Source: Fidelibacterota bacterium (GTDB lineage: Bacteria; Fidelibacterota; UBA8477; JABMPR01). From it: 64,000 bases of DNA. The translations under genes and the position numbers were made by a program. Where the stretch lies: assembly GCA_016845065.1 (NCBI GenBank), contig JAERTG010000095.1, positions 1 through 64,000 on the forward strand. The letters run 5' to 3'. The notes below the pieces were generated by a model, which had not been told where the DNA came from, ran no database searches, and was given only the letters and a program-made list of their open reading frames with translations. Shown here piece after piece: positions 11 to 26,416 of the stretch; position 1 is the stretch's first letter; each line of letters opens with the position of its first letter.

Positions 11-398
11 ACTTCCTCCGTTATTTTGTTGCATGCAATAAATAAAACAATATCAGCACCTTAGGTGCTAATTCATTTCATTTTCTTCGTTTTGAACATA
101 ATATGGGGTGAGGGTACAGCATACAAGCACTAAAAGCATCATAATTATAACGTTTCGCGCTGACTTGATCTCCCTCACTATTCGAAATACTTATTATGCC
201 GCAATAATATTTTAGCAATGCCAATATAAATCTCTTACATATTTATGAAGTAGCTGCAATTCGCCATATTATTTTAATCACACTGGACATGCAATTTTCT
301 GTTAGGACAAATAGTATCTGCTGTCACCACTATTATATTGAGTCATGTGTTTGACTATAGCAATCCCCTCGAAACTGATTTAGAAAGTAGTGCCAGTG
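11..398. other. Intergenic region, AT-rich, with two short palindromes
   Basis: No convincing coding sequence is visible in this 388-bp AT-rich stretch. Two palindromes lie near its left end: a perfect 10-bp one (TTGCATGCAA, 29-38) and one with 7-bp arms around a single base (AGCACCT/AGGTGCT, 55-69). They sit where the control region of the leftward gene at the window edge should be and may be operator sites. I see no clear sigma-70 promoter for the rightward ABC-F gene. Confidence 0.5.
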
Positions 399-2204
399 AT
401 GCCTGCAACTCTCATATCCACCCAGAACATTGATAAGTCCTATAGCAATACACGCCTGTTCAAGAACCTGTCAGTCAACATCCATTCCGGTGAACGCATT
501 GGCCTCATCGGTCCGAATGGTGCAGGCAAATCAACTCTTCTTAAAATTTTAGCCAGTCTTGAACAGGTTGATGCTGGTGAGCTTTCATCCAGCTCTGGTA
601 TCCGCATTGCTTATCTCCCCCAGGTAGATGACCTGGAGGAAAACCTATCCATCAAGGAAATCATCACCCACCATTTTCCTGATCATCTTGCCGACTGGGA
701 ACAACAAAAGCAGCTCAATGATATTCAGCATCAAATGAAGTTTTCAGACCTCGACAAGATCTGCGCTACCCTCTCAGGTGGCTGGAAAAAAAGAGTCGCA
801 CTGGCTTGTATTCTTGCTCAGGATACTGACCTGGTCCTCCTTGATGAACCAACCAATCACCTCGATCTTCAAGGGATTATTTGGCTGGAATCCTTTCTAC
901 AACAGGCCAGGTTTGCCTTTGTTCTGATAAGTCATGATCGCTTTATATTGGAAAACACCTGCAACCGTATCATGGATCTTGATCGTCGCTATAAGCAAGG
1001 TTATCTGAAAGTCAGAGGTAACTATTCTCAATTTCTCCAAGATCAGCAAAAGTATCTAGATGAGCAACGTCTTGAAGAAACAGCTCTGTCGAATAAAGTG
1101 AGGAGGGAAATTGACTGGTTGCGGCAGGGACCCAAAGCTCGGACAACCAAAGCTCAGTATCGTGTAGATAAAGCTCATGCGATGATCGATGATCTCTCAG
1201 AATTGAAACAACGAAATAATCTTCAAACAGAAGCGGGCTTAAGATTTGAGTCAGGAGATCGTCGTTCAAAGAAGCTTATGCATGCAAGGGGAATTAGCAA
1301 AACCAGAGGGGGTCAATCTCTTTTTAAAGATTTGGAATTGCTTCTTTCCCCAGGTATGAAAATTGGAATCATGGGTGTCAATGGAAGTGGAAAGAGTAGC
1401 CTGATAGACACCCTCCGCGGACGGCTGGAACCTGATACAGGTGAGGTTGAAATTACTCAGGGTGTTAATGTTGTCACTCTTGATCAATCACGCCATCTTC
1501 CGAACGAGAAGTTGTCGCTCAAACGTGCGCTCGCGCCAGATGGGGATACAGTGTTGTTTCATGGCACCCCGATGCATGTCAGTGCCTGGGCCAAGAAGTT
1601 TCTCTTTCAGAAAGAGCAGCTAGAACTACCTGTCACCCAACTTTCTGGTGGAGAAAGGGCGCGCGTTCTATTAGCCAATATTATGTTGGAGAAGGCTGAA
1701 ATTCTCATACTGGATGAACCAACCAATGATTTGGATATCCCTACCCTTGAGGTACTGGAAGAGAGCTTGCTTGAATTTACTGGTGCCCTTCTCCTCATCA
1801 CCCATGATCGGTATTTAATGGATCGAGTTTGCGATGAAATCATCTATCTCACTGGGAATGGAACCGTTAAGGTTTTTGCTGATACCTTTCAATTATCCAA
1901 CTACCAAAAATCCTTAGTTGTTGTGAATAAACCAACAGAAGTGCGCATTCCCGGTAGCAACAAACTAAGACACCAGGAACTTAAAACTTTACGTAAAGCA
2001 TTTAGTAAAATTGAGCGAGATATTGATAAAGCTGAATTAAACAAACAGTCCCTGGAGAATGAGCTTCATGATCCTGATAATGCGACTGACCCCACCAAAC
2101 TTGAAGACCTATCACAAGCTATCCATAAATTAAACATTGAAATTGAATTGCTTGTGGAGACTTGGGAATCCCAGGGTAGTAAAATTGCAGAATTGGAGAA
2201 ATAG
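399..2204 (+). CDS. uup: ABC-F family ATPase, Uup-like
   Basis: This soluble protein of about 600 residues has two ABC ATPase domains and no membrane segments, as in the ABC-F family of ribosome- or DNA-associated ATPases. Domain 1 shows Walker A GPNGAGKST, the signature LSGGWKKR and Walker B LLDEPTNHLD. Domain 2 shows GVNGSGKSS, LSGGERAR and LILDEPTNDLD. Between them is the charged linker with a WLRQGPKARTTKAQ stretch typical of Uup. The last roughly 80 residues are a charged helical segment like the Uup C-terminal coiled coil. Uup homologues are linked to ribosome function and to suppression of precise transposon excision; the exact role here is inferred. I chose ATG 399; an in-frame GTG at 390 is possible. 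It is monocistronic and convergent with the next gene. Confidence 0.9.
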   Translation: MPATLISTQNIDKSYSNTRLFKNLSVNIHSGERIGLIGPNGAGKSTLLKILASLEQVDAGELSSSSGIRIAYLPQVDDLEENLSIKEIITHHFPDHLADWEQQKQLNDIQHQMKFSDLDKICATLSGGWKKRVALACILAQDTDLVLLDEPTNHLDLQGIIWLESFLQQARFAFVLISHDRFILENTCNRIMDLDRRYKQGYLKVRGNYSQFLQDQQKYLDEQRLEETALSNKVRREIDWLRQGPKARTTKAQYRVDKAHAMIDDLSELKQRNNLQTEAGLRFESGDRRSKKLMHARGISKTRGGQSLFKDLELLLSPGMKIGIMGVNGSGKSSLIDTLRGRLEPDTGEVEITQGVNVVTLDQSRHLPNEKLSLKRALAPDGDTVLFHGTPMHVSAWAKKFLFQKEQLELPVTQLSGGERARVLLANIMLEKAEILILDEPTNDLDIPTLEVLEESLLEFTGALLLITHDRYLMDRVCDEIIYLTGNGTVKVFADTFQLSNYQKSLVVVNKPTEVRIPGSNKLRHQELKTLRKAFSKIERDIDKAELNKQSLENELHDPDNATDPTKLEDLSQAIHKLNIEIELLVETWESQGSKIAELEK

Positions 2205-2259: not shown

Positions 2260-5200
2260 TTATCTCGGGAAGGAAGTCTTTCTGCATATTCTATCATAAG
2301 GACAATAACGGCAAGCCTGCCGCTCATCTCTATCCGTCAGTGGGAAATGGTTATCAGCCAGAAACCGTGCATAGGTTAGCGTCTCTGCTTTAATTCGTTC
2401 AACCGTCCAGTCAGCCTGACCACCGATGGGCTGGGTTACCTTGGATCGAGAGGATACTGTGTCCATCACGGGGTGGTCCGCATCCACATCTCCGATGTAT
2501 CCCTTTATTCCAATTGCGTTGTCCCTGAATCCCTTGATCTGTTCATAGGTTAATACTATATCACTTTCAGGATATTGTGATTTAAGAACCAGATAATAAA
2601 AAAGCATCTGACTTGTCCAGAGCTCTTTACTCTCTTTCATATCAACCTTGCCAGTTTTATAGTCAGTAGCCCAGACATGTTTCCCCGATACCATTACTCG
2701 ATCTATTTTACCAAGGAGTGAGAGTTTTATGGAGCTTCCCTCTATTTTATAGGCTGGCCAGGATTGGGCATCCTCTGTATCCCCAAATGCCTGCTCATGC
2801 AGACCTCTTTCAGGAAACGCTCGTAACACATCAAGTTCTATCTTTAGCATAGCAGCAATGAGGTTCTGCTCAACATCCTGGAAATTCTTAAAATATAACT
2901 CACCCCATTTATTGTGAAGCAGGTCTGCATCTAGATCAATTCCCTTTTCATCCAGTAGAGAATTCGAAATCCCTTCTAGTTTAATCAAGGCAGCAGAGAA
3001 ATTATCAGTGGCCAACTCAAAGCCACCATCCTCACCAAAACGCTCAAGGACTTTATGAACCAGGTTCCCCACCTCAATTTCCTCACGCTCAGCAATATCC
3101 GTTTCAGCGGCTTCCAACCGAAGTTTACGACTATACCAATATCTTTGCGGACATTTGATCAGGTCATCAAAGGCAGAAGCCGAGATATGATCGAATTCAC
3201 TGATATCATGACTATAGAGTTTACCCTGCCATTCGCCCTTGGCAGTGGGTTGTATCAGCTGATTGTGTCGAGCCTGCCGAGGAGTTTTTGGGTTGCTAAA
3301 ACGCTTTCCAGCTGATTGACCGTATTGTTGGTCCTGCGTGAGGGTTGTTAGTTTAGGATAGTCTAATTTATCTAAATACTGACAGAAAGTACTTTCCTGT
3401 AGCACTGCCCCATCGGCGTTCCGAGTTGGTGCTGAGAGGTGTAGGCGACCACTGGGAAAACTCAACCACTGTTTAAATAAATACAAATTGAGAAACCAGG
3501 GGTTAAGTGAAGGTGGTTTTAAATATGGGTTCGTGTTTATTGTTAATGGAAACTGTCCCTCAGTTAGACCCATAACAAATAGATGCCCATCCTTTAAATT
3601 CAATGTGTCTAGAAGTGAGATGACATCAATCCCAAAACCCTGACTGGCTGAAGCAACTTCAACTCCACGCAAACGCTCCCTCAATTCTCGATTCAGGTCA
3701 GCAAAACTCCCCTTGCGATTTAAATATTGCTTCCAATCTTTGCTTAAACCAAGAGTGGCGTTCTTCAATGATGTATACGATTTTGACGCTACACTCCCTG
3801 GTTCCAGACGGTGGGCGAACTGAAAGTTCTTCAGTACTTCAATCAACCAATCAGCTGCTTCTACCAAACCAAGAGGTTGACCAGTTTGCCAGGAATCTGA
3901 AAGAAAGTGCAGTAGGTCATTGGCAGATTCCTTAAGTTTGGGATGATCGGTTAACTCCGGAAGCGTTTCATCAATATGAGTGACACCAAGTTTTCGCATT
4001 TCAATGTCAAGCTTTAATCTTGCATAACCCTCCTCCCCGCTAGGAATTACCAACGGATGGAGCCAAACAGACATGGCCAGATCCCAGGATAGTTGCTGTC
4101 GTAGACGACCCTGAATAAGTGCAAAGGCCAGATGTGTAATCGGTCGCTCCATCACGGGTTCACGTTTACTAAGCCGAACCGATATCCCCTGTTGGTCAAA
4201 GACCCTTTTAATGGCTGGGACATATCGCTCCATGGAGGAGACAGCAATCCGGATTCCTGCAGGAGCAACACCCCCCATGATTAATTGTCTTATTTGGTCT
4301 CCTACCAGCACCGCCTCCTCTTGAATGGAGAAACAGGGTGTATAACTATGCAGTTTCTCCTTCGAAGGCATTTCTTCTTGCAGAAGCCAGGCTTCAATCG
4401 ACATATCAAAGCCTGACACTGCCCGACCACTTTTAAGGGGATCAAAAAATATGAGGTCACGTTCTTTCGAAAGCGATTTTAAGAACTCATAGTCTGAAGG
4501 AGATGTGGAGTGAATTGAATTCACAATGATCTTCATTGAATCAGGAAGAAGTTTCAAATCAGTATTTTGCCCTGGAGTCTGTATAGATAGTTTCTCGCAC
4601 CACCCCAAAAAATCTGCATAAAGTTCCTGTTTCCCATCAACAACCTCATCACCACCCCCAGCCTTAAAGAACGCCTCAGCCAGACGATTGATTACCCCCC
4701 ACTGCAATCGTTTCCCCGAAAGTTGTGCTATGCCTAAACGTGTCAGGTAGGGTGTAAGTCGGCGACCTTCTGGCTCAGTCATTCTTCTGACTTCTCCAAG
4801 AGTCCGTATCTGCAACCTCGGATGATTGAGTCCAGCCTTCGCCAGAGATTGAGCCAACAATTCTCCACTATTTTTTGTGGGCTCTATGATGAGAATTTCT
4901 GACAGATCATCCTGTCGTTTAATAATCTCGCTCAATTGCGGGTTTAGATTCTGCGCACCAGGCAGTACGGGTTTTAATCCAATCCCATACTTATATGTGG
5001 CCAGGCTTTTGAAATACAGTTCTTCTTCAAAGGCGATAGGAATAAGTGTGTCGTATCGATTGAAGTAAAGCTCTCCGCGCGCCTCTATTCCATACATATG
5101 TTTAAGCATCCATAGGTAAGTCTGAATTTGATACCAATATGCATGCTGCTTTAACTGAGACTTATTGGGAACTTCCCTATCTGTTTTATAGTCAAGAACA

Positions 5201-8200
5201 ACCCAGTCGTCTCCTGACTGATATAGTAGATCAATAATACCTGAAATTTTAAACATGTGAGTCGTGTTTTGGAGAAATCCAAAGACAGGTAATTCAGGTA
5301 ACTTCTTGCTCTGTTCTAGTATAGAAATTTTGTGTGCTAACTGGCTTCCTCGGTATATCGCTAGACAATCGGTAAGATCCTCGATGTATTGATTTTGTAT
5401 TTCCAGGTCAGGGACGTTTCCTTCTTCAAGAAACAATCTGATTTGGTCTAAATGATTTTCCGGACTAAACCACTCCATTTCCATGGCTCGGTGTAAAAGT
5501 AAACCAAAGGTTTTTGGAGCCGTAGCAAGATCAAGATCGTCACCCAACTGACTTTCATCAGATCCCGAATAATCCTTCTTGTCCATCCACTTCATAATGG
5601 TATGGGGTGATATTTCACGATACACAAGGTGTTGCATAACTGGATCAATGCTGGAAATTTCAGCTACCGACGAGATGCCACGAGAGGTTTCTGCCTGTAA
5701 GATGTCTGACCCTGGGGTCAGTTCGTATTTAACCGCAGGAGTTGACCTGTTCTTCCACTCCCTCTGCAAAGCTTGAGGATCGCCGAGGGCTAGTTCTTTA
5801 TCCAGATCCAAGTCGAGCACAGGCTGTAAGTACCTGCTCCACCGTGAACTTATCGGCGCTTTGATGTCAGGTTTTATTTTAGCAATAAAACCAACACCGA
5901 ACTTGGCTCGAGTCACAGCAACATAGAAAAGCCTTTTATCTTCAGCCTCTTCCTCTGCCTTCGTTTGTATCTTTATCTGCTCATGCATCCACGTTTTGTG
6001 ACTGGTATTTTTCGAGTCAATAGTAATACCGGCCTGCCAGTCACCCTCATGACGACCAAGGAAAATACCACTCCTGTCAGCAGGTATTGGAGATTGCATG
6101 CCAGGTAAAAGAACTACAGGATATTCAAGTCCCTTTGCCTTATGTATTGTTAAAATCTGAACTTTTGCTGCTCCTGGCAGTTCGGCCTGTGAAGCATCTC
6201 CATGTTGAATCTGAAATTTGAAGTATTCATGAATTTCTCGTATTCCAAGACCATCTAGAGATAGCTGATGAACGGTGAGAATAATCCGATCCAGATTTGC
6301 CAGCCGTAGCCTTCCCCCAGTCTCGGATATCCAGGCCAATCGTCTCTCATCTTCAGAAACAATCATCTCAATGAGGCGATCCAAAGGTTCCCTGGCACTT
6401 GCCCGTTGCCAGTCCCTCAGTGTATCACAAATTTCAGGATGCAATTGCCTGAGACCATTCCATACCCAACCTGAACTGATATGAACTTGAGCGGCCTCCT
6501 TTAGCTGCTGAATGTCCTGGTCCTTCATCACAAAAAATGGACTTCGCAGAACTCCAACTAGAGCTTGGTCGTCCAGTGGATTAATAAGCACGCTGAGTAA
6601 GTGATAAATATCATAAATCTCTTGCTGCTCAAACAATCCCTTGCTTGATAAAACTTCAAACTCGATACCCTTGTTTGTGAAAATGCGAATGTAATCAAGG
6701 ATTGAAGTGAATGACCTTAACAGGATTCCAACCGATGGTCCACTCTCCGGTTCGAGATGATTACTCTTTACCCAATCCAACCACTCCAATGTCAGATCGG
6801 CAGTCTTAATGATATCAACAGCTGACCCTCTGGATGCGACATCATCGAGAACAACACTAACAGTACACCTCGATAATCCCATATTATTATCAGCATAAGA
6901 TGTGCTTATAGCTGCTTTAGCATGTCTAAATACCGTTTCGTACAATTCAATATTGTCAAGGTCGTCGTTACCAGGGAAGGCTGCACTTATCAGAGGATTG
7001 ATAACTTCTGAAACATATCTGGGGGATGAACGGTAGGTCTCATCTGCAGTGAGAACCCACCCATCATCGTTTTTTATAATATCCCTTACCCGATTCATCA
7101 CCTGAACATCAGCTTGATTAAAACGATATATGGACTGTTTTGTGTCCCCTACTATAAAAAGTCCCTGACTTCGAAGGACTCCCTCACCACCTTCCGCAAT
7201 GAGCCTGACAATATCCCATCGTACATCATTGGTATCCTGAAACTCATCGAAGAGGATATGCTGATACCGTTGCTCATATAAAGCGGCTATCTCCCCATCC
7301 AGAAGAAGTTCTCTGGTTTTGAGCATGACTTCGTTAAAGCTCAGGATGCCTTCTCGCTTCAGACGTTGGTTCAATGCTAGCCAGTACCCGTTAAAGAATT
7401 TTGCTAAATGGTGGTTAACCAGGCATGCTTCAATATCCCATATACTGGGAATCTCATGCATCAGAGTATCATAGGGAAGGAGCTGCTCTACCATTTCCTT
7501 AAAGCTCCTGAGCCGAACCCTGATCTCGTCCTTAAAATCCTCGGGCCAGACATTTGAAGGAACGGATGGTCGTTTTAGGTAATTTTTACGATCCTTCGTC
7601 AGAGCAATTCGACGAACAAACTCGATGAGTTCCTGGCCATATCGATAGTCGTCTTCAATTGGATTCCTCAGAAGATCCATCAAATCATGTAATGTCTTGT
7701 ACTGTGGGTGCGTGCTATCCAACATAGCAGCTTCTGATGGGAAGTCATCCAACAGGTGAATCAAGGCGGGTTCAATCTTTGATAACACTTGTGGCAGCGG
7801 ATGCTTTGCTTTGAATTCAGATCGTAGTTCATCTGGTGCTTTATTGCGATGATGTTCAAGCCATCCCACCATCAGTTGCGCCTGGGCCTGGAACTTTTTC
7901 ACATATTCGCTGATATGACGAATAGACAGGTGATCCAAAAGAACCTTCAAATCTGCATTGTTGTTACGACTGGAATCCCGTAAGTACTTTTCCCAGGTTT
8001 CCAGCTCCATGCGTTGTGTATCAGCCTCATCCTGAATTCTGAATTCTGGATCAATTTCCAGACGCTCCGCTTGTTCTCTCAAGATTTGAGCACAGAACGA
8101 ATCAATAGTCGAAATAGCATTTTTAGGGAAGGTTGAACGCAAATGCATTTTAGTAGTCTTGGAGGCGGATCTGAGCGAGGAACCAAAACCAGGTTCAACA

Positions 8201-8463
8201 TTCTCGAGTGCTTCGTCATTAAGTAGTTTATTCAAGTCGTCATAAATACGCCCGGCCATTTCCGCAGCCGCTTTACGAGTGAAGGTGATGACCAAAATAT
8301 TTGAAGCATCTTTTTTGGAGAGTTGCGCCTCATGTTGCCTGGCGAATTCGTTCATGATGGCTGAGTAGCGTTTTGAGAGCAGCCAGGTCTTTCCAGCACC
8401 TGCACAAGCCTCAATAAATACGTTTTTATTGAGATCAAATACTTTGCTTAGATCCATGTTCAT
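2260..8463 (-). CDS. addAB: AddA-AddB fusion: UvrD-type helicase-nuclease joined to AddB-type Fe-S nuclease
   Basis: This single 2067-residue frame carries both subunits of an AddAB-type recombination helicase-nuclease, which resects double-strand breaks for RecA. The N-terminal part is AddA/RecB-like: Walker A ACAGAGKT (19-26), motif Ia ITFTRKAAAEM (about 59-69), Walker B LFDEFQDTN (about 405), VGDTKQSIYRF (about 440), HKAKGLEYPVVLLP (about 775) and FYVAVTRAK (about 845). It ends in a PD-(D/E)XK nuclease with VLDYKTD (about 1090). A second, AddB-like part begins near residue 1180 (LIIEPTKNSGELL). It includes VMGLTEGQFP (about 1630), a lone Cys in LIKCPQRYWYS (about 1769), a second nuclease motif ATDYKTG (about 1930) and the C-terminal Cys2051, Cys2054, Cys2060 set that normally completes a [4Fe-4S] cluster. 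Both nuclease sites look intact. AddA and AddB are usually two separate proteins. The frame is continuous, with no stop or alternative gene at the junction (about position 4900). Confidence 0.9.
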   Translation of the reverse strand: MNMDLSKVFDLNKNVFIEACAGAGKTWLLSKRYSAIMNEFARQHEAQLSKKDASNILVITFTRKAAAEMAGRIYDDLNKLLNDEALENVEPGFGSSLRSASKTTKMHLRSTFPKNAISTIDSFCAQILREQAERLEIDPEFRIQDEADTQRMELETWEKYLRDSSRNNNADLKVLLDHLSIRHISEYVKKFQAQAQLMVGWLEHHRNKAPDELRSEFKAKHPLPQVLSKIEPALIHLLDDFPSEAAMLDSTHPQYKTLHDLMDLLRNPIEDDYRYGQELIEFVRRIALTKDRKNYLKRPSVPSNVWPEDFKDEIRVRLRSFKEMVEQLLPYDTLMHEIPSIWDIEACLVNHHLAKFFNGYWLALNQRLKREGILSFNEVMLKTRELLLDGEIAALYEQRYQHILFDEFQDTNDVRWDIVRLIAEGGEGVLRSQGLFIVGDTKQSIYRFNQADVQVMNRVRDIIKNDDGWVLTADETYRSSPRYVSEVINPLISAAFPGNDDLDNIELYETVFRHAKAAISTSYADNNMGLSRCTVSVVLDDVASRGSAVDIIKTADLTLEWLDWVKSNHLEPESGPSVGILLRSFTSILDYIRIFTNKGIEFEVLSSKGLFEQQEIYDIYHLLSVLINPLDDQALVGVLRSPFFVMKDQDIQQLKEAAQVHISSGWVWNGLRQLHPEICDTLRDWQRASAREPLDRLIEMIVSEDERRLAWISETGGRLRLANLDRIILTVHQLSLDGLGIREIHEYFKFQIQHGDASQAELPGAAKVQILTIHKAKGLEYPVVLLPGMQSPIPADRSGIFLGRHEGDWQAGITIDSKNTSHKTWMHEQIKIQTKAEEEAEDKRLFYVAVTRAKFGVGFIAKIKPDIKAPISSRWSRYLQPVLDLDLDKELALGDPQALQREWKNRSTPAVKYELTPGSDILQAETSRGISSVAEISSIDPVMQHLVYREISPHTIMKWMDKKDYSGSDESQLGDDLDLATAPKTFGLLLHRAMEMEWFSPENHLDQIRLFLEEGNVPDLEIQNQYIEDLTDCLAIYRGSQLAHKISILEQSKKLPELPVFGFLQNTTHMFKISGIIDLLYQSGDDWVVLDYKTDREVPNKSQLKQHAYWYQIQTYLWMLKHMYGIEARGELYFNRYDTLIPIAFEEELYFKSLATYKYGIGLKPVLPGAQNLNPQLSEIIKRQDDLSEILIIEPTKNSGELLAQSLAKAGLNHPRLQIRTLGEVRRMTEPEGRRLTPYLTRLGIAQLSGKRLQWGVINRLAEAFFKAGGGDEVVDGKQELYADFLGWCEKLSIQTPGQNTDLKLLPDSMKIIVNSIHSTSPSDYEFLKSLSKERDLIFFDPLKSGRAVSGFDMSIEAWLLQEEMPSKEKLHSYTPCFSIQEEAVLVGDQIRQLIMGGVAPAGIRIAVSSMERYVPAIKRVFDQQGISVRLSKREPVMERPITHLAFALIQGRLRQQLSWDLAMSVWLHPLVIPSGEEGYARLKLDIEMRKLGVTHIDETLPELTDHPKLKESANDLLHFLSDSWQTGQPLGLVEAADWLIEVLKNFQFAHRLEPGSVASKSYTSLKNATLGLSKDWKQYLNRKGSFADLNRELRERLRGVEVASASQGFGIDVISLLDTLNLKDGHLFVMGLTEGQFPLTINTNPYLKPPSLNPWFLNLYLFKQWLSFPSGRLHLSAPTRNADGAVLQESTFCQYLDKLDYPKLTTLTQDQQYGQSAGKRFSNPKTPRQARHNQLIQPTAKGEWQGKLYSHDISEFDHISASAFDDLIKCPQRYWYSRKLRLEAAETDIAEREEIEVGNLVHKVLERFGEDGGFELATDNFSAALIKLEGISNSLLDEKGIDLDADLLHNKWGELYFKNFQDVEQNLIAAMLKIELDVLRAFPERGLHEQAFGDTEDAQSWPAYKIEGSSIKLSLLGKIDRVMVSGKHVWATDYKTGKVDMKESKELWTSQMLFYYLVLKSQYPESDIVLTYEQIKGFRDNAIGIKGYIGDVDADHPVMDTVSSRSKVTQPIGGQADWTVERIKAETLTYARFLADNHFPLTDRDERQACRYCPYDRICRKTSFPR

Positions 8464-8552: not shown

Positions 8553-8975
8553 CTATTGCTTATCAATAATACTGAGTAGTCTCTGCGAAAAATCAGGTTT
8601 TAAGTCAGCCATATATTTTTCCACACCTGGCATGGCAACTATCCTGTGAACAGCTTCTTCCAGAGCAAGAATTTCACTTTCATCAAGTGCTCCGGCATCG
8701 GCCTGCTCACATTGAGCTTCAAACCCCTGGAACGCAGCATTCACCATGAGGGTCATACTAAGCTCCTCATCAGGACCGCTGGCTTCAAGGCCTTTTGATA
8801 GCTTCGCCCACAACACAGGTTGATCCATAAAATCATGCATCATATCATCTGCTTTACCACTTCCAGACTTTTCCTTCGTGCCCCGCATCTGTTTAGTATT
8901 ATTATAAATTTTAAATGCCAAAATAATGAATAACACAATTGTGATAGCTGCGGCAAATATATCTAGTGAGCTCAT
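8553..8975 (-). CDS. Small membrane-anchored protein of unknown function
   Basis: This 140-residue protein has one N-terminal hydrophobic helix (about residues 7-24) followed by a short basic stretch (KIYNNTKQMRGTKEK) and a soluble acidic, helix-rich tail. That predicts an inner-membrane anchor with a cytoplasmic tail. I do not recognise the family. It lies just upstream of the AddAB fusion on the same strand, with about 90 bp between them, and may share its transcript; nothing else ties the two functionally. Confidence 0.65.
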   Translation of the reverse strand: MSSLDIFAAAITIVLFIILAFKIYNNTKQMRGTKEKSGSGKADDMMHDFMDQPVLWAKLSKGLEASGPDEELSMTLMVNAAFQGFEAQCEQADAGALDESEILALEEAVHRIVAMPGVEKYMADLKPDFSQRLLSIIDKQ

Positions 8976-20880: not shown

Positions 20881-21097
20881 GAGCCCTATATATCTTTATC
20901 ACTAATATATCTCATTTTCATGTCATACAGAATGCTGCAGGCAATAGGCTTGAATTGGTTCTGGGCTAGCTCTATATTTGGTGTTTAACCAGAGAAATTG
21001 CACTTTGTTATTCGGTGCTGTTTTTTTTATGCAAAATTTTTTAACGGTAATAAGCCTAACTAAGGTCCATGATAAAATGAATACTAAGGAGTATACC

Positions 21098-24000
21098 ATG
21101 AAACGATTGTTCTCTAACGGATGGGTTGTTGTCCTCGTCATGCTACTGGCTACTGGAGCTTTCGCAGACCGGAAGGTCGCACCAACTGCAGCCTGTGATG
21201 TCTGCCTGAAGACATCAGTTGACGGAACGCTGGATGTAAATTGGAATGCTGAGACAATCCCCGGTTCTTCGCTTCGCGATGAAGAAGCAGTCTATCATGA
21301 CGGATCCTTTGAAGGCCAAATCGGGTGTGGAGGTGGTTGTGGTTTCAGTGTGCGTTTTACTGCTGACACCCCCATCTTTCTAACAGGTCTTACACTCTAT
21401 ACTCAGGGTGGTAATGCTACATCAGCCATCGTGAGCATATATACAGATGCTGCCTCTGCCATTGCCGGCCCTCCCAGTCTACCAATTGGACCTGGTGATG
21501 GAACTGCTCTGTGGGAATCAGACCCAATGGACCTAACAACAATAGACGATCCTACCTCACAATTTGATATTGTTCTGGACAACCTGGTTCTTGATGCTGG
21601 TGACTACTATGTGGTTGTCTGGGAAAACAACTCCGGATTCCTTGGAATTGCCAGTGACTTACAATCAAATTATTTAGATCGCAACTGGGCTTACTCCGCC
21701 AATGGTTGGGAAATGATTAATGATGCTGTTGGTGGTGATCCAACACTTGTTGGAAACTTCGCTATTTCTGCCCTGTATCTTCCTCAGGAAATTACTGGTT
21801 CATACATGACTGTTGATACACGTAATATCAATTTTGGTGTACTTCAGCTTGCTGATGGTGCCGTTACTACAGATGTTACCATTGGAAATATTGGTCTGGA
21901 TCCTTTTGATGTTACTGCTATCACTATCGATGGTCTGGATTTCTCGACATCTCTGGTAACACCCGTTACTGTTTTGGCCGATTCTTTTGTAGTCTTTGAT
22001 GTCACACTTACTCCCACTGTTGAGGGTGGAGCGAATGGTACCTACACGATTACTTCCAATGCTGACAACACTCAGGAGGTTGTAGTAAACGCAACAGCCA
22101 TGGTGTTTGATGGTTTCCCAGAGTATATGATCTGGAATCCAGCCAGCTCGATTAGTGGACCAGCATTTGTAACCGCTTTTGGTGAATTGGGATTAACAGC
22201 CATCGAAACACCTGATTTGTTCATATTTGGCAGCCCGCTTGAGGCTGAGTTTTCAGCAGTATTTATCACGCTTGGAATTTATTCAAACAATTATGTCCTC
22301 CAGGATAGTTCTGCCGAAGTTTTGGCACTGGTTGATTATGCAAATGCAGGCTATCCACTCTATATGGAAGGTGGCGACACCTGGGCTTTTGATCAACCAA
22401 CAGTTCTCCACCCCTATTTTGGTGTTGATGGTATTGCTGATGGAGGTGCCGACCTAGCAGCTGTAACCGGTCAGAACTTACTCGCTGGCTTTGACTACCC
22501 CTATGTTGGTGAAAATAGTTTTATGGATCACCTCGGACCACTCACCCCTGATGCACAGATAATTCATGTGAATCCTGCTGATGGTGAGGGCTGTGGAATT
22601 GCTAACCTCACTCCCACCATGACATCCATTGGTACTTCCTATGAATTTGGTGGATTGGTTGATAGTGCAGCGACAAAAACAGAACTATTATCTGAGTATC
22701 TGGATTTCTTTGCTACACCATATACGGACGTAAGACCACCTGTGGTTTCAGGTGTCACTCAATTCACATTTACTCTTGATACAGATGGTCCATACACAAT
22801 TGAAGCACACATCGCCGACAACGTCGAAATGGATTTTGCTGTCATCTTCTATAATTCCAATGGGGGTGCATTCTCAACTTCATCAATGAGCGAGATTGGC
22901 GATGGTATGTATTCTGGAGATATCCCAGGACATCCTGTCGGTAGCACGGTTGGCTATTATATTCAGGCTTTCGATTCCGAAGGAAATGAAGGATTTTCAC
23001 CTGAAGGCTCTCCAGATGAATTGTATTTCTTTGATGTTGTCTCCCACCTGCCACCCATGTTTGTAGAAGCTATTTCAGGTCTCGATGGTACCATTGAGTT
23101 ATCCTGGTTAGCACCTGGTACAGAAGCTCCCGCCCTGGTAGAATGTGCTGACTATCCAATTCCATCCCTGCCTTTTAACGCAACTGGTACAAATCTGGGA
23201 ATGGGCGATGATTTTGATGTCGCTGCCAGTGATGGTGAGGATGTGGCTTATCAACTGAACGTGATGGTACCCTCCACATATACAATTTCACTTCTTGGCG
23301 GTACAGACTTTGATTCCAAACTGGAAGTCTTTTATGATGATTGCGTTACCTCAACGGGTTACTACAATGATGATTCAGGTGGTCTACAATCTGAATTGAC
23401 AGATGTTTACCTGGATCCAGGTACCTACCTGGTTGTGGTTGATGGCTTTTTTGGAGCTACCGGTAATTACACAATTGATATCTGGGAGCAAACTGCCCGC
23501 GAGCAGTCACTGGTTGTTGCTGAAAACGATTTGAGGTATGAGATAGCTAAACTTCGTACAGCTGGTATCGAAATCACACCCGGTCTACTGAGCTCCAGCC
23601 CTTCTCGCTATTTACGCGAATTGCGTGAGCTGACCAATTTTGGTGTTTATCGTAGTGAAACTTCCCCTGTCCTCATCGAAGCTGGAAACCAGATTGCAGT
23701 CATTGATACACTCCCAATGGCTTACACAGACCATCCACTTGTGAATGGAACTACTTACTATTATCGCATTTCTGCCATCTATGATGATGGCGAGGCAGCC
23801 TCATCACAGGTTGAGGGTGTTCCAATGAATCACCCACCAATGATGCCTACTGGCCTTGTTGGGACAGTAAATAGTACCACCAACGATATTACTTTGGATT
23901 GGAACGCCAACACTGACTATGATCTCGCTGGCTACTATGTATATCGTGATGGTGAATATGTCGCCACAATTACACAGCCCACAGTAACCTACACGGAAAA

Positions 24001-26416
24001 CCTCATTGATGGTGCCTACCAATACGTCGTAACATCTTTTGATACGGGTGGCATGGAATCTGACAACTCTGAACGAATTCAAGTTCTGGTTGGAGAAGTA
24101 CCACCGAGTGAACTTCGTGCTGATGGTTTCTTTGACGATCATATCGAGTTAACCTGGAGGGTTCCTGGCAACCCAGCACCACCTCTCATGCCTTGTGCTG
24201 ATGAACTCATTCCCTCACTTCCCTTTGTAACAAACGGTAGTACCGTTGGAATGGTTGATGACTTTGATGTGAGCGGTACTGATAATGAAGATTATGCATA
24301 TCAGCTGTTCATGTTCGAAGATGGCACAATCGACATTACGCTTTGTGGACCAAACATTGATTATGATGCAAAGGTCGAGATTTTTAATGGTGATTGTGAT
24401 CTCATGCTGTCAACAGGATACTATGATGATGATGGTCCAGCTTGTGATGCCGCTCCTGGCCTCATTGGACCCTCTGAAATCCTGGGTGCATTTCTCACTG
24501 AAGGTGTTTATTTCATCGTCGTCGATGGATTCAGCGCAAATGCTGGAAACTATGATCTTACTGTAACTGAGGCTGAAACTCAAAGACAGTACACACCTGA
24601 GACAACCGCTGAAATGCTCAAGAAACTTGTGCTCAACAATGAGATGACACGCATGGAGGCTGATGCCATCCTTGACGCAGAAGCATCGGTTCCATTTGCT
24701 CCTGTCTTCATTGACAATGCATACGCACAAAGTGACTTGCGTGAAATTACCGATCTCACTCATTACAACATCTATCGTGATGGGAGCGTGATTGGTACCA
24801 CCACTGAGACCATTTACAATGATGCAGTTGAAGAGGATATGCCTTACTTCTATCAAGTAACAGCCACTTATGATAATGGCGAAGAATCCGCTCCAACCAA
24901 TCTGGTTGAAGCACGTGCCAATATGGCTCCCGGTCCTCCTACTAACTTGTTTATCGAGGATGTCGGCCATACCGTAACCATGACCTGGCAGGACCCACTG
25001 TTCAACATGGACGGATCTCCATGTTATGATCTTGAAGGTCTTGAAATCAGACGGAATGGTTCATTGATTTCGACTGTGGATGTATTTGAGTGGAGTTTTA
25101 TGGATTTCGCACTACCAGATGGACATTATGTCTATGAAATCTCTGGTTTTGACGAAGTTCCGAACCATGGTGCATCCGTTAGTATTGATGTCTGGGTAGG
25201 TCCTAAACCAGTTATCGTTCAGGTACTAACTGACAACTATCCCTATGAATCATCCTGGAACATTTATAACTCCAGCAGCGATATTGTTGCCAGCATTGCA
25301 GCAGGTGATCTAACCGAAGCTGGTGTGCTCTATGAGTGGGCTATTGGTCTGGAACCAGGAACCTATTTATTCGAAATGCTAGACACCTATGGTGACGGTA
25401 TCTTCGATCCTGGATATTATCAGGTCATGCACGGTACTAATATCCTGGTTGGCCCTGGTGGAGATTTCGATACACAGGAAATCACACCCTTCGTTGTTGA
25501 ATCAACCATCCTTCTAGGTGATCTAGATGGTGACGGATTCCTGAATATTCTGGATGTAACCCGTTTTATTGAAATCGTAACAGAAACTGGTGAAGCTCCA
25601 ACATTTGATGAACTAGCCCTTATGGATCTCAATGGTGACGGCAACCACAATATTTTGGATGTGGTCATACTCATTGAGGAAGTTCTCAACATGGGTGGTC
25701 TGGCCAAAGACAATCCCATCATTGAAGATATCACCGCTACTATAGCACCTCTCACATTGACCAACACACGTGAATGGCAGAATATCCCCGTCACCGTGGA
25801 TTGCTTTGAGATGGTATCTGGCTTCCAAGCCGACCTCGTATTTGATCCCAGTATTGTTGAACTAGGTATCCCTGTTCTCGCTGCTGGAAACGAATCAGTT
25901 GGCGTCTTTTCATCTCTGAATGGAAATACCATGCGTGTTCTGGGTATTGATCTTGCGGGAAATATGATTGACCTGGCCTCTGGTCTGCTCATGAATGTCC
26001 CTGTTCAAGTCATCGATGAAAATGCTGCTGGAGCCATGGATTTCGCCGTGGAAGATCTGATCATTTCAGGTCCTGGTGGTATTGAGATCGTTGCGGAATG
26101 TCTGGTTAGCATCATTGATATCGGTCTTCCAGCACCAACAGAGTTCAGCTTACAGCAGAACTATCCCAACCCCTTCAATCCAACAACAAATATCCGTTAT
26201 GATATCGCTGAAAGCGGCGATGCACATCTTGTGATTTATAACATGTTGGGTCAGGAAGTCCGGTCTCTGGTTAATGGCAATCAGGAAGTTGGACGCTATG
26301 AAGTATCCTGGAATGGTTTAGACAATGCTGGACAACCTGTAGCTACAGGTATCTACATCTATCACCTTCAGGCTGCTGGATATTCTAAAACAATCAAGAT
26401 GGCTTACATCAAATAG
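21098..26416 (+). CDS. Large secreted modular protein with PPC, FN3, dockerin, cohesin-like and sorting domains
   Basis: Starting at ATG 21098, preceded by AAGGAG six bases upstream, this is 1772 residues with a signal peptide ending near GAFA. Modules in order: a beta-rich N-terminal part (about 40-230); an Ig-like module with NINFGVLQLADGAVTTDVTIGNIG (about 240-335); a roughly 200-residue segment I cannot assign; a PPC-like module (about 680-800); FN3 modules (about 845-1000); a second PPC copy (about 1030-1160); more FN3; a dockerin type I pair of calcium loops (DLDGDGFLNILDV and DLNGDGNHNILDV, about 1473-1530); a cohesin-like domain (VSGFQADLVFDPSIVEL); and a C-terminal sorting domain (NYPNPFNPTTNIRYD...GIYIYHLQ, last 90 residues). 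No peptidase motif is visible. It is probably a type IX-type secreted surface adhesin or scaffold. A strong terminator follows. Confidence 0.85.
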   Translation: MKRLFSNGWVVVLVMLLATGAFADRKVAPTAACDVCLKTSVDGTLDVNWNAETIPGSSLRDEEAVYHDGSFEGQIGCGGGCGFSVRFTADTPIFLTGLTLYTQGGNATSAIVSIYTDAASAIAGPPSLPIGPGDGTALWESDPMDLTTIDDPTSQFDIVLDNLVLDAGDYYVVVWENNSGFLGIASDLQSNYLDRNWAYSANGWEMINDAVGGDPTLVGNFAISALYLPQEITGSYMTVDTRNINFGVLQLADGAVTTDVTIGNIGLDPFDVTAITIDGLDFSTSLVTPVTVLADSFVVFDVTLTPTVEGGANGTYTITSNADNTQEVVVNATAMVFDGFPEYMIWNPASSISGPAFVTAFGELGLTAIETPDLFIFGSPLEAEFSAVFITLGIYSNNYVLQDSSAEVLALVDYANAGYPLYMEGGDTWAFDQPTVLHPYFGVDGIADGGADLAAVTGQNLLAGFDYPYVGENSFMDHLGPLTPDAQIIHVNPADGEGCGIANLTPTMTSIGTSYEFGGLVDSAATKTELLSEYLDFFATPYTDVRPPVVSGVTQFTFTLDTDGPYTIEAHIADNVEMDFAVIFYNSNGGAFSTSSMSEIGDGMYSGDIPGHPVGSTVGYYIQAFDSEGNEGFSPEGSPDELYFFDVVSHLPPMFVEAISGLDGTIELSWLAPGTEAPALVECADYPIPSLPFNATGTNLGMGDDFDVAASDGEDVAYQLNVMVPSTYTISLLGGTDFDSKLEVFYDDCVTSTGYYNDDSGGLQSELTDVYLDPGTYLVVVDGFFGATGNYTIDIWEQTAREQSLVVAENDLRYEIAKLRTAGIEITPGLLSSSPSRYLRELRELTNFGVYRSETSPVLIEAGNQIAVIDTLPMAYTDHPLVNGTTYYYRISAIYDDGEAASSQVEGVPMNHPPMMPTGLVGTVNSTTNDITLDWNANTDYDLAGYYVYRDGEYVATITQPTVTYTENLIDGAYQYVVTSFDTGGMESDNSERIQVLVGEVPPSELRADGFFDDHIELTWRVPGNPAPPLMPCADELIPSLPFVTNGSTVGMVDDFDVSGTDNEDYAYQLFMFEDGTIDITLCGPNIDYDAKVEIFNGDCDLMLSTGYYDDDGPACDAAPGLIGPSEILGAFLTEGVYFIVVDGFSANAGNYDLTVTEAETQRQYTPETTAEMLKKLVLNNEMTRMEADAILDAEASVPFAPVFIDNAYAQSDLREITDLTHYNIYRDGSVIGTTTETIYNDAVEEDMPYFYQVTATYDNGEESAPTNLVEARANMAPGPPTNLFIEDVGHTVTMTWQDPLFNMDGSPCYDLEGLEIRRNGSLISTVDVFEWSFMDFALPDGHYVYEISGFDEVPNHGASVSIDVWVGPKPVIVQVLTDNYPYESSWNIYNSSSDIVASIAAGDLTEAGVLYEWAIGLEPGTYLFEMLDTYGDGIFDPGYYQVMHGTNILVGPGGDFDTQEITPFVVESTILLGDLDGDGFLNILDVTRFIEIVTETGEAPTFDELALMDLNGDGNHNILDVVILIEEVLNMGGLAKDNPIIEDITATIAPLTLTNTREWQNIPVTVDCFEMVSGFQADLVFDPSIVELGIPVLAAGNESVGVFSSLNGNTMRVLGIDLAGNMIDLASGLLMNVPVQVIDENAAGAMDFAVEDLIISGPGGIEIVAECLVSIIDIGLPAPTEFSLQQNYPNPFNPTTNIRYDIAESGDAHLVIYNMLGQEVRSLVNGNQEVGRYEVSWNGLDNAGQPVATGIYIYHLQAAGYSKTIKMAYIK

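Follow-up and report, generated by a model that had tools for sequence, protein, structure and literature searches.

AddAB and RecBCD are textbook multi-subunit machines. AdnAB keeps ATPase motifs in both of its subunits, and RecC is without an active nuclease. Marinimicrobia, or SAR406, are abundant in the ocean. For AddAB, PMC4824097 describes an ionic latch, the salt bridge E129-R629, as absolutely conserved, and fusions of UvrD with Cas4, in which a superfamily 1 (SF1) helicase is joined to a Cas4-like nuclease, are described in PMC5704561. We analysed a stretch of 64,000 nucleotides from an uncultivated marine member of the Fidelibacterota (contig JAERTG010000095.1 of assembly GCA_016845065.1, positions 1 to 64,000; the window) and found that its gene at 2260-8463 is a fusion of AddA and AddB carrying both nucleases and a four-cysteine iron-sulfur (Fe-S) set. 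Judged from its sequence and from predicted structures, this gene very probably encodes a single-chain AddAB, the enzyme that resects double-strand-break ends in the cell.

The gene runs on the minus strand from 8463 to 2260 as one open frame, with an ATG start, 2067 codons plus the stop and no internal stop, and the calculated mass of the 2067-residue protein is 236 kDa. The initial annotation, made from the sequence alone, had reported this single uninterrupted frame with the right length and coordinates but had given no strand. The UvrD-type helicase motifs that it announced were found in the frame as ACAGAGKT at residues 19-26 and DEFQDT at residues 406-411, and its two nuclease motifs, VLDYKTD (1089-1095) and ATDYKTG (1932-1938), lie where it had placed them. 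Three of its Fe-S cysteines, C2051, C2054 and C2060, were confirmed, while the first proved to be C1771 and not a residue near 1769. The parts of the gene are listed below; g19 is a genus in which the gene is split again.

2260..8463, minus strand: fused addA-addB gene, 2067 codons plus stop, of which 30 further intact copies are known.
5869..8463, minus strand: SF1A helicase portion of AddA, spanning roughly residues 1-865 (matched by UvrD-helicase and UvrD_C of Pfam and by AddA of NCBIfam).
8386..8409, minus strand: AddA Walker A, ACAGAGKT, residues 19-26 (GKT in 31 of 31 copies).
7231..7248, minus strand: AddA Walker B or motif II, DEFQDT, residues 406-411 (DE in 31 of 31 copies).
5056..5511, minus strand: AddA PD-(D/E)XK nuclease core, about residues 985-1136 (Cas_Cas4 at 1074-1148; H991, D1078, D1091, K1093, Q1112 and Y1116 in 31 of 31 copies).
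5305..5346, minus strand: site matching the gene cut of g19, residues about 1040-1053 (from the g19 pieces; a helix-loop that precedes the first core strand of the model).
4861..5058, minus strand: connector joining the AddA nuclease to AddB, residues about 1136-1201 (length 57-66 residues across the 31 copies; ordered by prediction).
3199..4869, minus strand: AddB helicase-like part, about residues 1199-1755 (begins at the strand after Walker A; without a P-loop).
2278..3189, minus strand: AddB PD-(D/E)XK nuclease with the Fe-S cysteines, residues 1759-2062 (Pfam PDDEXK_1; catalytic residues in 31 of 31 copies, four cysteines in 27 of 31).

The Pfam models matching the fused protein were UvrD-helicase (residues 9-460), UvrD_C, Cas_Cas4 (1074-1148) and PDDEXK_1, the last over two stretches with the best at 1759-2061. 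Among NCBIfam models, the first half matched AddA (TIGR02785, 3e-74; TIGR02784, 2e-72) and RecB (7e-60), and a homologue among solved structures is AddA 3u44_A (E 1.8e-31). When the whole protein was searched, the second half gave weak matches to AddB (TIGR02773, 1.9e-6; TIGR02786, 4.9e-6) and a match to TIGR03623, "probable DNA repair protein" (1.2e-10).

We surveyed the phylum by searching 245 Neomarinimicrobiota genomes with an alignment of 19 copies at a cut-off of 1e-20. Matches were obtained in 83 genomes, the weakest of them brief alignments of about 70-79 bits to other helicase frames, and intact fused frames of 1930-2145 amino acids were found as 31 copies in 30 genomes from seven families (13 genomes in f1, 11 in f6, 2 in f28 and 1 each in f2, f4, f12 and f27). 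These copies are 24-83% identical to the window protein, and one of them, in G036, lies inside a genome consisting of a single 2.8-Mb contig. Both sets of nuclease residues (His, Asp, Asp, Lys, Gln and Tyr; in the AddB half of the window protein H1803, D1921, D1934, K1936, Q1952 and Y1956) were identical in all 31 intact copies, as were the GKT and DE of the AddA motor. All four Fe-S cysteines (C1771, C2051, C2054 and C2060) were present in 27 of the 31, the window copy included. The four exceptions, L029 of f4, L049 and L050 of f28 and L051 of f27, have all four cysteines replaced and the catalytic residues kept, and they form one clade with a support of 99 in both the AddA and the AddB tree, a pattern most simply read as a single coordinated loss of the predicted Fe-S site. 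Just before the AddB nuclease lies an R-H-N motif (R1732-H1733-N1734, window positions 3262-3270), which reads RHN in 26 of the 29 AddB halves, whether fused or re-split, the Arg being present in all 29.

The identity of the C-terminal half was addressed by structure prediction and by profile comparison. An AlphaFold2 model of residues 1168-2067, computed from 29 aligned rows, had a mean predicted local distance difference test score (pLDDT) of 87 and a predicted template modeling score of 0.67. Foldseek comparison of this model with the PDB returned as its five best matches the AddB chains of Bacillus subtilis AddAB (3u44_B at E 2.2e-26; template modeling [TM] scores by query 0.69-0.71), followed by RecC (TM 0.48-0.50) and AdnA (TM 0.37-0.49), so that the AddB features expected by the initial annotation after residue 1180 are indeed there. 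Profile-profile comparison of the fused AddB halves with nine separate AddBs of the phylum aligned most of their length at a probability of 100 and an E value of 1.3e-44, and five of these separate AddBs match TIGR02773 at 1e-30 to 8e-55.

Several observations weigh against the reading of the gene as a single-chain AddAB. Every NCBIfam match was far under its curated cut-off (250.6 versus 707.65 for TIGR02785 and 25.8 versus 903.7 for TIGR02773); none of the eight separately encoded AddA and AddB proteins compared from the phylum reached such a cut-off either, and that of TIGR02785 was passed in 2 of 14 control genomes. Searched alone, the AddB half had TIGR03623 (2.6e-11), not AddB, as its best NCBIfam match, and its profile, compared with PDB sequences, returned AdnA, RecC, UvrD and others and no AddB chain at an E value of 1 or below. 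No match was found at 1e-20 in 162 of the 245 phylum genomes, including 1 of the 19 genomes of the genus of the window (G006) and 2 of the 3 of genus g3 (G020 and G022), and likewise G041 and G047 of f6 and others; the enzyme may be dispensable, replaced or simply missing from these assemblies. Finally, the genome of the window (4.05 Mb in 182 contigs) is 93% complete, and another recombination nuclease could thus be unassembled.

The sequence matches would suit a C-terminal half that is some other RecB-family partner, of the TIGR03623, AdnA or RecC type, the protein then being a novel helicase-nuclease chimera. TIGR03623 was matched by 27 of the 29 members, compared with 24, 21 and 17 for the AddB/RexB models, and the PDB sequence matches point in the same direction. 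AddB, however, leads the fold comparison with an E value about eight orders of magnitude ahead of the best non-AddB chain, and its TM scores of 0.69-0.71 exceed those of RecC (no more than 0.50) and AdnA (no more than 0.49). Most of the half can also be aligned with separate AddBs from the same phylum, and five of these match the AddB model. The predicted fold and the profile comparison together make a non-AddB identity of the second half unlikely, and we give it a small chance.

The reading as an AddA-AddB fusion being retained, the question arises of whether the two halves work as one chain. The connector, R1136-P1201, measures 57-66 residues in all 31 copies. A model of residues 868-2067 (pLDDT 83.9) shows it as a block of pLDDT 84-93 made of two helices with a short strand between them, and it is predicted to be an ordered bridge, not a floppy tether. 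The fused chain could nevertheless be only a precursor, cut after synthesis or bypassed by internal initiation, with an ordinary heterodimer as the working enzyme. Covalent linkage is not essential, as the separate pieces of g19 indicate, and an in-frame ATG, GTG or TTG occurs in the connector of 30 of the 31 copies, behind a Shine-Dalgarno-like match in 7 of the 31. The positions of these codons vary, however, between families, and the connector of the window has a lone TTG with no Shine-Dalgarno-like match, so that separate initiation of AddB is unlikely in this copy. The predicted order and near-constant length of the connector also speak against a precursor, which we regard as improbable.

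Comparison with separate AddBs showed where the fused AddB begins. Its first strand (ILIIEPT) was set by hhalign against the strand that follows the P-loop of separate AddBs, and when a separate AddB was aligned to 3u44_B, the P-loop lay about 25 residues ahead of the fused start (counted by eye). A P-loop pattern was found in none of the 29 fused or re-split AddB halves but in four of the phylum's nine separate AddBs, one of these nine being truncated ahead of that position. Since the fused AddB aligns from the strand after the P-loop and the pattern is absent from all 29 halves, the Walker A segment seems to have been removed rather than mutated. The initial annotation was right in recognizing an AddA-AddB fusion, with the correction that the part following AddA is an incomplete AddB, the first segment, with its Walker A, being absent.

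The places of the latch residues R629 and E129 and of F210, a Chi contact, were counted along the alignment of a separate AddB with 3u44_B and carried over by hhalign, and at 16% identity they are provisional. At the R629 place, Arg was found in 0 of the 29 fused or re-split halves (two have Lys), compared with eight of the nine separate AddBs, and Asn-Pro-Trp adjoins the lost Arg in 15 of the 29. The E129 place has Glu in 3 of 29 halves in the hhalign column or in 9 of 29 in the neighboring column set by eye, and in 14 of 29 if Glu is accepted anywhere in a five-residue span, with six of nine for the separate AddBs. Phe at the F210 place was absent from all 29 halves and present in all nine separate AddBs. 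F68, considered as a second lost Chi-contact Phe, was dropped, as the separate AddB of that alignment also has no Phe there but Leu. The loss of the latch Arg and of F210, as read from these alignments, would suggest a gate different from that of the studied AddAB and is not proof of Chi independence.

Trees were built for the AddA part (47 rows, with a haloarchaeal outgroup) and for AddB (40 rows). The tree searches were quick ones, and some branches are long (L081 and L057 for AddA, L057 and L021 for AddB). Near-identical copies were omitted, namely 5 and 7 in the two AddA trees, the second of which is also without 5 of the 15 separate AddAs, and 3 of 31 in the AddB alignment. The fused genes and the g19 pieces formed one clade in the AddA tree with a support of 100, the separate AddAs of f3, f5, f8, f9 and f31 falling outside, and the fused and re-split genes likewise formed one clade in the AddB tree, again with a support of 100. 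As the trees of both halves give a single clade, they are most simply read as one fusion inside the phylum. In all seven of the phylum's loci read here that hold the two genes apart, addB precedes addA in the same orientation, with an opposite-strand frame of 276-590 codons between them, which is DUF92, a membrane protein, in the two tested. B also comes first on two haloarchaeal plasmids, where addA begins before the end of a PD-(D/E)XK gene that we take for addB. The fused order being A first and the separate order B first, the fusion required a rearrangement rather than the mere removal of a stop codon.

Genus g19 carries the gene in two pieces. G054 has a motor piece of 1038 amino acids that ends at model position 1042 and lies beside ftsK on contig C45, and a second piece, a 1013-codon frame matching from position 1054, that lies beside a TPR-protein gene on contig C3; both pieces (L061 and L062) are interior to their contigs, which measure 42.7 and 25.1 kb. 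In G056 the motor piece recurs (1044 amino acids), again beside a 791-amino-acid frame, and the start of the second piece lies on a different contig (L063 and L064), while G055 (L065) gave only the start of the second piece, the motor piece not being found. There was one match per piece in G054 and G056, besides weak matches to helicase frames of 732-736 amino acids. With the His motif (H991) on one side of the cut and D1078, the first catalytic Asp, on the other, the AddA nuclease domain is divided between two proteins; the region of the cut is a helix-loop stretch ahead of the first core strand in the window model. A tree with the fused genes excluding g19 was rejected in both halves (approximately unbiased test, P = 0.003 and 0.001), indicating that fusion came first and fission second. 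Inside the clade, g19 may join f6 (support 32).

Put together, these data are consistent with an enzyme in which the AddA half would be the only ATP-driven motor, its nuclease serving the 3'-ended strand, and the AddB half would be an ATP-dead, helicase-like scaffold that guides the strands and carries a second, Fe-S-supported nuclease for the 5'-ended strand. The AddB half would be tied to AddA by the ordered connector of about 60 residues. We infer the resection activity, the strand assignments, which are taken from Bacillus AddAB, and the hand-over to RecA. Such an enzyme would have arisen by one fusion, with AddA in front and with the Walker A segment of AddB lost. The linkage would enforce 1:1 assembly, and the suggestion of the initial annotation that fusion fixes the subunit ratio is fair in this sense, but the pieces are apart again in g19, within the same clade, which suggests that the linkage is not indispensable. 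A bolder proposal, which taken as a whole we hold to be possible yet somewhat doubtful, is that these proteins form a separate class of single-chain resection enzyme that has lost the P-loop segment, the ionic latch and a known Chi contact and is gated unlike any studied AddAB or RecBCD, without Chi or by another signal, and that in g19 the AddA nuclease is trans-split, with the His-motif helix on the motor protein and the D/D-x-K core on the AddB protein, and reassembled in the complex.

The genome of the window was searched with the fused protein and with the AddA, AddB and RecC families, and only the fused gene and a 742-amino-acid helicase frame on C121, which we infer to be UvrD, were found. 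The genes flanking the fusion are the following.

390..2204, plus strand: downstream convergent neighbor, an ABC-type ATPase with two ABC_tran stretches; syntenic across the genus; outside the system.
8553..8975, minus strand: upstream neighbor of 140 amino acids, without a Pfam match at 1e-5; not counted here among the parts of the system.

Of the 19 genomes of the genus, 14 have the ABC ATPase, which is presumably of the ABC-F type, next to the fusion, and the fused gene is for this reason regarded as a settled chromosomal gene. The upstream 140-amino-acid frame has a hydrophobic N terminus and stands beside the fusion in nine genomes of the genus, that of the window included (50-91% identity). 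Elsewhere in the window, a frame of 1812 amino acids with a TTG start occupies 20978-26416 on the plus strand. PADLOC lists GajB (2.8e-30) and Cas4 (4.7e-18) models among 54 families for the fused protein, which might point to a Gabija- or UvrD-Cas4-like defense enzyme and not to a housekeeping recombination enzyme. These matches, however, are to generic UvrD and Cas4-like domains and cover only part of the protein, the neighbors are ordinary chromosomal genes conserved in the genus, with no defense gene among the three tested, searches of the genome of the window gave no second candidate for AddAB or RecC, and across seven families the gene makes up a single clade. A role in defense is thus very unlikely, and a housekeeping AddAB remains the preferred reading.

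Nine genomes (G008, G010, G011, G012, G015, G017, G043, G044 and G045) contain only pieces of the gene; those read as loci, namely all but the pieces on C145 of G017, which starts at base 4, and on C253 of G015, run off a contig end. Two metagenome-assembled genomes (MAGs) of sample series SI053, G010 (L013/L027) and G012 (L014/L028), have the gene broken at the same place, with residues 1377-1422 overlapping, and this shared break is probably an assembly effect. Another MAG, G007, holds two intact fused copies, L006 on C20 and L045 on C37, which are 75 and 73% identical to that of the window, the second copy being a paralogue or the product of a mixed bin. Near position 4900, where the initial annotation had looked for a stop or frameshift, none was found, and each of the 31 copies reads across the junction without interruption. 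That the fusion is an assembly or annotation artifact, two adjacent genes joined by a sequencing error, would fit a window taken from a 182-contig draft and the nine genomes with pieces only, but it is already refuted by the conservation across copies, with 31 intact frames in 30 genomes, 24-83% identity through the junction, one copy in a one-contig genome and all breaks read falling at contig ends, g19 excepted, and its probability is close to nil.

Beyond the phylum, none of 72,556 plasmid records (294 matched in part) and none of 50,697 phage records (63 matched in part) had one place covering 80% of the query. A search of 392 genomes, in which two candidates per genome were scored, so that misses are possible, included a small sample of about 147 genomes from outside the phylum, and no fused frame was present among its 11 matches at 1e-40, which were frames of 884-1298 amino acids. 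A further 84 and 8 genomes searched at 1e-90 exclude only close relatives, since the seed genomes also fail this cut-off. A contig scan with the fusion, a method that detects close relatives only, returned seven loci, all of them Neomarinimicrobiota and metagenome assembled. An AddA-AddB fusion was not named in the titles and abstract starts of the papers listed by literature searches, although a mention in Cromie 2009, Krajewski 2014 or Saikrishnan 2012 is possible, and we found no paper naming both Marinimicrobia and AddAB. What we report as new is an AddB that begins after Walker A, the missing latch Arg and Chi-contact Phe, the joint loss of the Fe-S cysteines, and the re-splitting of the gene within the AddA nuclease domain in g19. 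A one-chain form across seven families, together with a genus that is cut elsewhere, lets evolution itself test what contacts and what stoichiometry the machine needs. The roles of the Fe-S cysteines, lost together in one clade, and of the latch, which appears to be lost, likewise become testable by comparison. A one-chain enzyme may also be easier to express and study than a heterodimer.

Set against known systems, the fused protein differs from the UvrD-Cas4 fusions in that these are a single helicase-nuclease unit with no AddB half. RecBCD has in RecC a similar ATP-dead, helicase-like scaffold (TM 0.48-0.50), and no RecC-type gene over the cut-off was found in the genome of the window. AdnAB of Mycobacterium (PDB 6ppj and 7sjr) shares the pair of nuclease-bearing helicase folds, but it consists of two chains and matches the predicted fold less well, and the second half of the fused protein has no P-loop. 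The separate AddA and AddB of f3, f5 and f9, in the same phylum, are homologous to the two halves but are encoded by two genes, with complete AddB frames of 1045-1065 codons. B. subtilis AddAB (PDB 3u44 and 4cei) is two chains, whereas the fusion is one, in the order A then B; we treat this difference in chain number as one of architecture and not as touching a catalytic hallmark of AddAB. The fusion also differs in having no Walker A segment in AddB and a variable E129 place, and none of the 29 rows has Arg at the R629 place or Phe at the F210 place. What the fused protein has in common with B. subtilis AddAB is an AddA with helicase and nuclease, an AddB with a helicase-like fold, a nuclease and four cysteines, and a single motor.

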